Below are positions 24,732 through 27,540 of a stretch of DNA of 51,202 bases, in pieces. The position numbers and the translations under genes are program-made. This stretch comes from Roseiflexus sp. (GTDB lineage: Bacteria > Chloroflexota > Chloroflexia > Chloroflexales > Roseiflexaceae). The DNA is taken from positions 1 through 51,202 of the forward strand of contig JANXAL010000003.1 in assembly GCA_025062325.1 (NCBI GenBank), read 5' to 3'. Position 1 is the first letter of the stretch; the number at the start of each line of letters is the position of its first letter. Under the pieces are notes generated by a model that was given only the letters and a program-made list of their open reading frames with translations, was not told the origin of the DNA and searched no databases.

Positions 24732-24852
24732 GGTTGTTGTTGCTACCTTTGCGCCTACAATCTGCACGCCTGCAACCTTTCCGCCCCTCGCCTCACGCCT
24801 CATCTATGATACACTATTCATAAACACACGCGTTCCAGAAAAGGATGCTGAT

Positions 24853-26328
24853 ATGGACCTCCCAATCATTATTGTTGGCGGCGGACTTGGGGGATTATCC
24901 GCCGCTATTCACCTTGCGGCGCGTGGTCGACGCATCGTCCTGCTCGAAAAGAATGAACGCGTCGGCGGCAAACTGAACCTAGTTGAAGCCGACGGATTTC
25001 GGTTCGATACCGGACCTTCATTGCTGACCATGCCTTGGGTGCTGCGTTCGGTCTTCGCTGCCGCAGGGCGGCGGATGGAAGATTTCCTGACCATCACACA
25101 GCTTGAACCGATCTGCCGGTACCGCTGGCTCGACGGCACGCGGTTCGACGCCTGTCAGAATCTGCCTCGCCTCGCCGAAGAAATTGCACGCATCGAACCT
25201 GCCGATGTAGCGGGCTTCCTCCGTTTTCTCACCTACGCCGAACGCATCTACCGCGCTGCGGAGGGTCCGTTTCTACTGCGCCCGTTCGACGGTGTGCGCG
25301 ACCTGCTGACCCCTGAGCTGTTCAGCGGTATGTGGCAGATTGACCCTTTTCGCACTGTTGATCAGGCAGTCCGCAGTTTCTTCCGCAGCCCCTATCTGCG
25401 CCAGGTGTTCGACCGTTACGCTTCATACAATGGGTCATCGCCCTTCCGCGCGCCGGCGACGTTCAATCTTATTCCTTATGTTGAGTTTGTCCAGGGCGCC
25501 TGGCATGTGTGCGGCGGCATGTATCAGATTGCACGTGCGCTATCAGCGCTGGCGTGTGATCTTGGCGTGGAGATTCGCACCAATGCGCCGGTCGAACGCA
25601 TCGAAGTTCGCAACGGCGCCGTCTCCGGCGTTGTTCTGGCGAGCGGCGAGCGACTGGCCGCCTCGCTAGTGATTATCAATGCCGATCCGCGCTACGCATA
25701 CGCTGCGTTGCTGCCTGGTGCAGAAAAGACCGCAACGCGCCTGGCGCGGCTCGAGTCGTCGTACAGCGGGTTCGTCCTGCTGCTGGGTGTTAACCGTATT
25801 TACCCCGAATTGGCGCATCACAACATTTTCTTCTCGTCCGACTACCGCGCCGAGTTTACAGCGATCGTCGATATGCAGACGCCTGCGCCCGACCCCACAA
25901 TCTACATTTGCGCTGCATCGGTGACTGATCCATCGCTGGCGCCGCCTGGACACATGAACCTGTTCGTATTGGCTAATGCACCAGTGCTCAACCCGCGTGT
26001 CAACTGGACGCGCGAAGCAACCGGCTACCGGAACCTGATCCTGCACAAACTGGAGCGTATGGGGCTGGAAAATCTGAGCCAGCACATTGTGTTCGAGCAG
26101 ATCTGGACGCCAGCAACGATCAATGAGCGCTACAATGCTCCTGGAGGTGCAATCTACGGACTGGCGTCAAATAATCCCTGGACAGCGTTCATGCGTCCGC
26201 CGCTGCGCGCTCGTGAAGTGCGCGGCGTCTACTTTGTCGGCGGCGGCACTCACCCTGGCGGCGGCATTCCGCTGGTGCTCCTCTCAGGGCGCGCCGTCGC
26301 GGAACGGGTTCTAGCAGATGCCGCCTGA
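24853..26328 (+). CDS. CrtI-family phytoene desaturase-like oxidoreductase
   Basis: A 491-residue FAD-dependent enzyme of carotenoid synthesis. The dinucleotide-binding N terminus is IIIVGGGLGGLSAAIHLA followed by VLLEKNERVGGKLN and DTGPSLLTMP. The C terminus has the family signature GVYFVGGGTHPGGGIPLVLLSG. These are hallmarks of CrtI/CrtN/CrtD desaturases; which step it performs (phytoene, diapophytoene or methoxyneurosporene-type) is not decidable here. ATG at 24853 is chosen with AAAAGGA about ten bases upstream. The frame runs open to 24508, but that part is antisense to the glycosyltransferase. A small ATCGTT/AACGAT stem (26332-26347) follows the stop. Fits a carotenoid-bearing phototroph. 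Confidence 0.9.
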   Translation: MDLPIIIVGGGLGGLSAAIHLAARGRRIVLLEKNERVGGKLNLVEADGFRFDTGPSLLTMPWVLRSVFAAAGRRMEDFLTITQLEPICRYRWLDGTRFDACQNLPRLAEEIARIEPADVAGFLRFLTYAERIYRAAEGPFLLRPFDGVRDLLTPELFSGMWQIDPFRTVDQAVRSFFRSPYLRQVFDRYASYNGSSPFRAPATFNLIPYVEFVQGAWHVCGGMYQIARALSALACDLGVEIRTNAPVERIEVRNGAVSGVVLASGERLAASLVIINADPRYAYAALLPGAEKTATRLARLESSYSGFVLLLGVNRIYPELAHHNIFFSSDYRAEFTAIVDMQTPAPDPTIYICAASVTDPSLAPPGHMNLFVLANAPVLNPRVNWTREATGYRNLILHKLERMGLENLSQHIVFEQIWTPATINERYNAPGGAIYGLASNNPWTAFMRPPLRAREVRGVYFVGGGTHPGGGIPLVLLSGRAVAERVLADAA

Positions 26329-26358
26329 CCTATCGTTAAGAAACGATTTAAGAACCTC

Positions 26359-26386
26359 TTGACTTATGGCGCATAGATGCTATCAT
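26359..26386 (+). promoter_or_regulatory. Sigma-70 promoter of the 26392-26792 RNA
   Basis: TTGACT (26359-26364), a 16-base spacer and TATCAT (26381-26386). The expected start site is near 26392-26394. The -35 hexamer is identical to that of the mgtE leader promoter. Confidence 0.62.
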
Positions 26387-26391
26387 GTGGG

Positions 26392-26792
26392 TAACACCCC
26401 AGGGAACGAAAAGGACAACTGGACTTTGACAAACGGATCGATGACCCTGCATGGCAAGCGGCGTTACCCATAAGATGGTGGGGGCGACCGTAAGTCGAGG
26501 GAAATGGCAGAGCAAAAATGCCAGGGAGATCGACAGGCAAGCGCCGGGTGTTTGATGAAACACTGGATGCTGTGTGAGTCGATGCAGGGTTCCAGCGGTA
26601 AAGCTCGCACTATCGCAGGGGGAGTTTGAGGGCGAAGTGCGTTGCGACCCCGACAGAGGAGCTGGCCGTCTGCAAAGCGCTGTCGCGGTAGCCGAACGGT
26701 AGGTCCCGAAGTTGGAGTTCAGCACCTTTTCAGCGCCCCTGGGGCAATACGTTCACCGGCCCTTCGCAGCAATTGCTGCGAAGGGCGTTTTT
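26392..26792 (+). ncRNA. Candidate structured noncoding RNA, about 400 nt, family unknown
   Basis: The segment is bounded by its own promoter and a very strong terminator and contains no credible coding frame on the plus strand. Long-range helix TGGGTAAC (26388-26395, at the very 5' end) pairs with GTTACCCA (26463-26470). Local stems are TGGCA/TGCCA (26505-26509, 26519-26523), GTGTTT/AAACAC (26548-26553, 26558-26563) and a compound stem CGCACT/AGTGCG (26606-26611, 26636-26641) continued by TCGC/GCGA. I do not see tmRNA (no tag frame, no CCA arm), RNase P (no GAGGAAAGTC), SRP or T-box cores. The next plus-strand gene is over 1.2 kb away and an SDR gene converges on it, so it is not an mRNA leader. 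Function unknown. Confidence 0.6.
26759..26792 (+). terminator. Intrinsic terminator of the candidate RNA
   Basis: GCCCTTCGCAGC (26759-26770) pairs perfectly with GCTGCGAAGGGC (26775-26786) around AATT, followed by G and five T residues. The T-run overlaps the stop codon of the convergent SDR gene. Confidence 0.9.
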
Positions 26793-27540
26793 ATGGCGCT
26801 ATTCGCCACCCGCCATCTACGACCAGCGTCTGCCCGGTAATGTACGACGCAAGCGGCGACGCTAGAAAGACGATAGCTGCCGCTACTTCCTCAGGGCGCC
26901 CGGCGCGCCGCAGGGCAATCACCTGCTCACCCCAACGCCGCATCTCCTCTGGGATGACTGTCAACTGCGGCGTTTCGATGAGACCCGGCGCAACGGCATT
27001 GACAGTAATGTTCCAGGGCGCCGCCTCACGCGCCAGCGTCCGAATCAATCCTAATATACCGCCGGTCGCCGCCGAAAAATCCGCCTGTTGCGGGCCGCCC
27101 GCCAGTCCGTGAAGCGCTGCGACAGCAACAATTCTGCCATAGCGCCGCCGCATCATCCGGCGCAACGCGGCGTGGCAAACGTTGCTGGCGCCATCGAGGT
27201 GCAATGCCAGCACTTCACGCCACTGCGCCGCACTGATCGCGTCAACCGGCGCAAAACGCATTGCTCCTGCACAAAATACCATCGCGTCCAGGCGTCCATA
27301 CGTTTCAACAACCGAACTGACCAGCATCTCGACTGACTGCGCGTCACGCGCATCAATCCGATGCGCCACTACCTCGCCGCGCATACCCCGGCACGCGGCA
27401 ACCACCTGCGCTGCCGCTGCTGCATTCTGATGATACCCGGCAATCACGCGCGCACCACGCTCTGCGAGCATCTGCACGACCGCGCTGCCAATCGCTCCCG
27501 ACCCGCCGACAACAATTGCGACTTGGTTGGTGAAATCCAT
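26791..27540 (-). CDS. SDR-fold protein with all catalytic residues replaced
   Basis: A 249-residue Rossmann protein closely following the FabG-like short-chain dehydrogenase layout. The cofactor loop GGSGAIG (12-18) is kept, as is the ITVNAVAPGLIETP segment. However, the catalytic tetrad is gone. The Tyr/Lys motif YxxxK reads FSAAT (Phe155, Thr159), the Ser of the preceding strand is Ala (VAVAALHG, about 142), and the Asn of the helix-4 motif is His (LALHLDG). The NAG motif also reads CAG. Length is normal with no frameshift, so it is a retained, probably nonenzymatic protein, perhaps an NAD(P)-binding regulator or structural partner. It converges on the candidate RNA, with the stop codon inside the terminator T-run. 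Confidence 0.86.
   Translation of the reverse strand: MDFTNQVAIVVGGSGAIGSAVVQMLAERGARVIAGYHQNAAAAAQVVAACRGMRGEVVAHRIDARDAQSVEMLVSSVVETYGRLDAMVFCAGAMRFAPVDAISAAQWREVLALHLDGASNVCHAALRRMMRRRYGRIVAVAALHGLAGGPQQADFSAATGGILGLIRTLAREAAPWNITVNAVAPGLIETPQLTVIPEEMRRWGEQVIALRRAGRPEEVAAAIVFLASPLASYITGQTLVVDGGWRIAP

Follow-up and report, generated by a model that had tools for sequence, protein, structure and literature searches.

The stretch of DNA analysed here (the window) covers 51,202 nucleotides of a Roseiflexus sp. contig. Positions 26359-26792 lie in an intergenic region between a crtI-type desaturase gene that ends at 26328 and a convergent FabG-like gene that ends at 26791. The features of this region, read from the left, are as follows.

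24832..26328, plus strand: crtI/crtD-type carotenoid desaturase gene (TIGR02734 crtI_fam, 448.9 bits, above cut-off); context, outside the RNA
26332..26347, plus strand: palindromic box ATCGTTAAGAAACGAT, 16 bp, a likely regulator site that begins 3 nt past the crtI stop codon
26359..26386, plus strand: promoter with -35 TTGACT, 16-nt spacer and extended -10 (TGC)TATCAT; sequence pattern, plus conservation in relatives
26393..26792, plus strand: predicted transcript, its start inferred from the -10 box and its end from the terminator; transcription itself untested
26397..26404, plus strand: closing helix P1, 5' arm CCCCAGGG, partner 26737-26744; covaries across families
26419..26430, plus strand: second long-range helix of the Roseiflexus group, 5' arm CTGGACTTTGAC; minimum-energy fold and 6-sequence consensus
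26480..26585, plus strand: conserved core domain (models R1-R3); covariance model score of 105.8 bits, E 2e-24 in the window
26494..26498, plus strand: core helix 1, 5' arm GTCGA, partner TCGAC at 26530-26534; 54-sequence covariation
26537..26575, plus strand: core helix 3 hairpin, with a G-U wobble beside a bulged A; 54-sequence alignment
26711..26722, plus strand: second long-range helix, 3' arm GTTGGAGTTCAG, paired with 26419-26430 in the minimum-energy fold and 6-sequence consensus
26737..26744, plus strand: closing helix P1, 3' arm CCCTGGGG, partner 26397-26404
26759..26792, plus strand: intrinsic terminator GCCCTTCGCAGC-AATT-GCTGCGAAGGGC-GTTTTT, a hairpin of 12 bp (9 of them GC) at 26759-26786 and then GTTTTT
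26791..27540, minus strand: convergent FabG-like SDR gene (best NCBIfam TIGR01830, under its cut-off); context

An earlier inspection of the window without database searches (the sequence-only reading) had proposed a free-standing structured RNA of about 400 nt, with a good promoter and a near-perfect 12-bp terminator. All three claims held. Comparison with relatives strengthened the first, showing that the segment is a stand-alone structured non-coding RNA gene with a conserved promoter architecture; that it is transcribed, from about 26393 to 26792, is inferred. The closed body of the RNA spans 26397-26744 and the RNA measures roughly 350-420 nt. An equivalent of the terminator hairpin is present in four other genomes (G005, G002, G004 and G003). 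The TTGACT-16-TATCAT pattern alone is not beyond chance (1 found against 0.5 expected); the comparison with relatives therefore decides, and the promoter stands through its conservation. The upstream palindrome ATCGTNAA-N4-CGAT occurs at a single site in the window, against 0.02 expected. The fold energy of the segment is -178.5, compared with a shuffle mean of -154.0 (z -4.3), and none of 100 shuffles folds as well.

With blastn, four other genomes of the genus gave complete or almost complete copies of the segment (83-88%), G009 gave most of it (76%), and G011, G014 and G047 gave the core alone; G047 belongs to another family. A core covariance model built from eight sequences with G047 held out (R1) matched 44 of the 82 genomes of the order, one copy each, with E-values down to 2e-31, and recovered the held-out genome at 3.7e-15. 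A refined model of 44 sequences (R2) found nothing outside the order across 400 genomes spread over the phylum; relaxing its filters added two genomes of a third family, G038 and G041. When the DNA flanking crtI was searched in unmatched genomes, the RNA turned up just downstream of crtI in G032 and G035 (same genus). A third model of 54 sequences (R3), run over 158 genomes of the class, raised the tally to 51 of 82 Chloroflexales genomes in all four families, usually as a single copy and newly including G026 and G048. Neither R2 nor R3 gave a confident match outside Chloroflexales in the 400 phylum and 158 class genomes.

An exact-pattern scan of about 85,000 species genomes returned 28 matches, of which 26 fall on records that belong, or seem to belong, to Chloroflexales. 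The remaining two, in Paracoccus and Streptomyces, are chance-like; with R3 the Streptomyces match reaches only 15 bits. A weak core match (23 bits) was found in G447, from another order (L158:935-1290, G447:C27), at a locus that also has a TTGACA resembling a promoter element and two segments (TGCCCCGAGGGGTT/GGTTTCTCGGGGCA) that could form a 14-bp closing helix; this genome could carry a distant member of the family. The RNA is absent from several near-complete relatives that retain crtI (G012, G015 and G051), and it is thus dispensable in some lineages.

Two side observations arose from these searches. A record titled Candidatus Gracilibacteria (JAAUTF010000047.1, L093) carries the RNA; its title is probably wrong, the contig more likely coming from the order of the window. 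Loci of genus g17 (L020-L023, L027) contain imperfect tandem repeats of about 30 nt (GTACGCACGTTCGGTAACCTATCGGGAACT) between the closing helix and the terminator, and genus g12 has a different repeat-like stretch after the RNA at the same place.

The sequence-only reading had held that its proposal would be refuted by stems not conserved in relatives or by a match to a protein-coding gene. Stems are conserved, with many compensatory changes. Among 44 core sequences, standard pairs fill 94.9% of pair cells, against 81.9 when shuffled and 26-40% when slid by 1-3 columns, and both sides have changed in 19 of 25 pairs, a result matched by 0 of 500 shuffles. With the third family and paralogues included (54 sequences), 94.0% of cells are paired and double changes occur in 21 of 25 pairs. 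The core alignments were fitted to the covariance model and are thereby biased towards the proposed structure; this bias alone is insufficient to account for the signal, given a covariation score of 0.52 compared with 0.05-0.09 for the slid controls. An independent MAFFT alignment of 30 full-length family f4 sequences yields 63 predicted pairs, 37 of them with compensated changes, and gives a multi-branched consensus structure. There is little doubt that the segment represents a real structured RNA family.

Within the core, a helix GUCGA/UCGAC encloses a GGGAAA/GGGAGA internal loop and a hairpin, and is followed by a second hairpin, CAAGCGC...GGAUGCUGUG. Across the 54 sequences, core helix 1 shows double changes in all five of its pairs (97.8% paired) and core helix 3 in 12 of 16. 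The G-U pair adjoining the bulged A of helix 3 (26537-26575) is invariant (54/54) and, with that bulge, likely marks a recognition or metal site. Conservation is strongest in internal loops and helices, not in one free seed. In most members closing helix P1 emerged from a separate search for pairing, and its arms differ by family yet pair (GCCUCAAGAG/CUCUUGAGGC, GCCUCGAGAG/CUCUCGAGGC, GCUCCAAGAUG/CAUCUUGGAGC and GCCCCGGGUA/UACCCGGGGC).

One structural claim of the sequence-only reading did not survive. It had joined the 5' end (TGGGTAAC, 26388-26395) to GTTACCCA (26463-26470) in an 8-bp helix. The complementarity is literally present; relatives do not retain it (the corresponding segments of G005 are CAGTTAAC and CGCTACCC), and the 5' arm begins upstream of the expected transcription start. 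We rejected this helix as unconserved, the true closing helix being P1.

These data also bear on the possibility that the segment is not an RNA gene at all, but a fold arising by chance, the remnant of a coding gene or a DNA element. In its favor, the window has a minus-strand open frame of 125 aa. Against it, stops interrupt that frame in relatives, and the compensatory changes lie far above controls and refute it, leaving this explanation next to no room. A protein-coding gene was likewise rejected, as stops occur in every frame of six close relatives and no reading frame is retained; the protein-coding refutation was thus not borne out.

The sequences upstream of the RNA are similarly conserved. 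The palindrome is present in all 50 main-type members and in none of six members of a divergent type (paralogue b, below). It usually lies 7 nt upstream of the -35 box, or 10-11 nt in the Roseiflexus group. A sigma-70-type promoter, TTGAT/TTGAC - 16-17 - TGCTATNAT, is retained in nearly all members, with an extended -10 TGCTATNAT in most main-type ones, and P1 starts about 8-10 nt past the -10 box. In four of five genomes tested, the palindrome joined to the promoter (box plus CTTGA) occurs once, with no other site there. We infer that the RNA would be transcribed from its own promoter and that a dedicated regulator acting at the ATCGT-N6-ACGAT palindrome may set its level.

Seven Roseiflexus-type genomes carry a second, divergent copy of the RNA, paralogue b, which was revealed with R2. 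The six loci examined have the promoter CTTGTAAAA-TATACT without the palindrome, and the closing helix of this copy is GCCCUG/CAGGGC. Its neighbors differ from those of the main copy: purL and an SDR gene lie on one side and a long membrane-protease-like protein on the other, purL and membrane protease being names that we assigned from the sequences. The two Roseiflexus copies would presumably be under different control. In G001, the close crtI orthologue and the main RNA both went undetected and paralogue b is present; the locus was probably lost there or falls in a gap of the assembly.

Paralogue b loci also share a 16-nt block, GTAGTCTACCGCAGCG, unchanged in six of six genomes about 170-250 bases before the core (at about 7570-7650 in L115 and at the equivalent place in L116-L120) and followed by CGGTCAA and TTGCACA/CAAACTG blocks. 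Judged from sequence alone, this resembles a second, different regulatory region.

We compared the RNA with known families using Rfam 15 (4227 models), applying the gathering threshold to the whole window and a permissive threshold to the RNA locus and further homologous loci. This search, which the sequence-only reading had proposed as a check, gave no credible match: no model reached its gathering score in the window, and no match at permissive thresholds was consistent between the RNA locus and its homologous loci. OLE, ROOL, GOLLD, raiA, group I and II introns, riboswitches and T-box were among the models scanned, and none matched the RNA. The permissive matches (a vertebrate lncRNA fragment, microRNAs) were dismissed as chance level. 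The features that define the new family (closing helix P1, core helices 1-3, and the box and promoter upstream) are all present. The family is new to our knowledge, having no description in Rfam or in the literature searched, where coverage of subscription journals was limited.

The new RNA is about the right size for a divergent housekeeping RNA (RNase P RNA, tmRNA or SRP RNA) and usually has one copy per genome. Class A RNase P RNA (RF00010) also resembles the new RNA in length and in having a closing P1 helix. Each of the three is found elsewhere in the same genome, and this identity is all but ruled out. RNase P RNA was rejected on the absence of a match at the locus and the presence of the genome's own at G000:C87:38437-38882; tmRNA (RF00023) on the true tmRNA at G000:C22:17977-18345 (170.7 bits) and an unmatched locus; and SRP RNA (RF00169) on the true SRP RNA at G000:C32:2171-2267, again with the locus unmatched. 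The earlier statement that tmRNA, RNase P, SRP and T-box signatures are missing thus held. A 6S RNA (RF00013) is not supported either: a scan of the loci only gave no Rfam match, and the consensus is multi-branched rather than a long hairpin with a central bubble. Separately, the genome's RNase P RNA (L011:1501-1946, G000:C87) scores 65.8 bits over model positions 1-367, under the gathering score of 100, and would escape standard Rfam-based annotation.

The next gene downstream runs convergently, in the window as in most genomes, and for this reason a cis-acting leader of the riboswitch type was rejected. The earlier view that a leader is unlikely, given no plus-strand gene within 1.2 kb, held as well; downstream of the segment there is no clear plus-strand gene before 28049. 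Another possibility is a ribozyme or metabolite sensor that came to stand alone; the invariant G-U wobble by the bulged A and the strictly retained internal loops could form an active or binding site. Against this, the RNA has no similarity to a known ribozyme or riboswitch family in Rfam, no expression platform and no downstream gene, and we regard this origin as very improbable.

In three families the RNA is preceded by a co-directional crtI, despite differing wider neighborhoods, and the matches found blind with R2 and R3 in G038, G041 and G026 adjoin or lie near it. The position of crtI directly before the RNA raises the possibility that the RNA is a structured 3' UTR of the crtI mRNA, setting the stability or termination of the desaturase message in cis. 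In addition to this arrangement, only 3 nt separate the crtI stop codon from the box in the window, and a terminator for crtI alone could not fit there. Against a 3' UTR, the RNA has its own palindrome in 50 of 50 members and a conserved promoter, lies about 2.1 kb from crtI in G026 with genes between, and is retained without adjacent crtI in G011, G048 and paralogue b. We consider the 3' UTR reading unlikely. Since the RNA persists without crtI in these cases, it is a gene in its own right.

We also rejected stricter links to the neighborhood. The RNA occurs without crtI (G011, G048 and paralogue b) and crtI occurs without the RNA, in most of family f3, in genus g8 and in some f4 genomes. A strict tie to phototrophy fails similarly: no reaction-centre gene was detected in G006, which has the RNA, and genus g8 lacks the RNA yet possesses reaction centres. 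The conserved position after crtI suggests, without establishing it, a link to membrane pigment or lipid physiology. A mobile or phage origin was rejected, as no plasmid match to the RNA was found and the sole contig from a viral collection looks chimeric. That contig (L168, IMGVR_UViG_3300034678_001012), filed as viral, carries a trpC-like fragment, most of the RNA and then phage genes, and is probably a chimeric assembly. No protein partner gene is encoded beside the RNA in all genomes.

Beyond the housekeeping RNAs, bacteria have few large structured ones. OLE RNA, which assembles into RNA-only dimers and into protein complexes linked to membranes (PMC12286853, PMC10898510), is likewise a large, stand-alone, elaborately folded and lineage-bound bacterial RNA; the new RNA is shorter, has no Rfam sequence or structure match and adjoins no common protein-partner gene. 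ROOL and GOLLD are similar as ornate multi-helix RNAs of unknown function, but their genes belong to phages and prophages and often lie close to tRNA islands (PMC12286853), whereas the new RNA sits at stable chromosomal loci, has no plasmid match and appears on one chimeric-looking 'viral' contig only. The raiA motif RNA (ModT) is likewise a structured bacterial RNA that is conserved and stand-alone, and its role long went unexplained (PMC11706538); it differs in sequence and distribution, again without an Rfam match. Chloroflexi-1 RNA (RF01698), a candidate reported from Chloroflexus aggregans (PMC2864571), has an Rfam model that does not match the new RNA at any locus tested. In broad type the new RNA resembles the ornate OLE, ROOL and GOLLD (PMC12286853); apart from size and complexity, none of the defining features tested is common to it and them.

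A trans-acting antisense-type small RNA, pairing with mRNAs via exposed loops, would fit a stand-alone gene with a promoter, a terminator and a regulator-type box, as seen for many regulatory RNAs. The RNA is, however, far longer and more fully structured than is typical and its conserved blocks are not one free seed, and this alternative seems unlikely. By inference, the large multi-helix body and conserved purine-rich internal loops fit a scaffold better than an antisense RNA. We thus lean, with modest confidence, towards a scaffold that acts in trans: the RNA would fold into one compact body tied by closing helix P1 and would work within a protein-bound or RNA-only complex. This is inferred, with transcription and function untested, and counting against it are the lack of a protein-partner gene adjoining the RNA throughout the genomes and the absence of the RNA from several near-complete relatives. 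A bolder version, to which we give rather less than even credence, is that these RNAs are an unrecognised large ornate class, vertically inherited in Chloroflexales and possibly in a neighboring order, that forms an RNP or RNA-only assembly, has two differently regulated paralogues in Roseiflexus and plays a role in membrane or phototrophic physiology.

Some of the known large RNAs (OLE, ROOL, GOLLD) turned out to form unusual assemblies. Most of the genomes sampled from the order carry the new RNA, and the order includes model anoxygenic phototrophs such as Chloroflexus. The expression and structure of the RNA are directly testable because the promoter is well defined and a regulator-like site adjoins it. 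The Roseiflexus paralogue pair, if under different control as inferred, would offer a natural handle on function.
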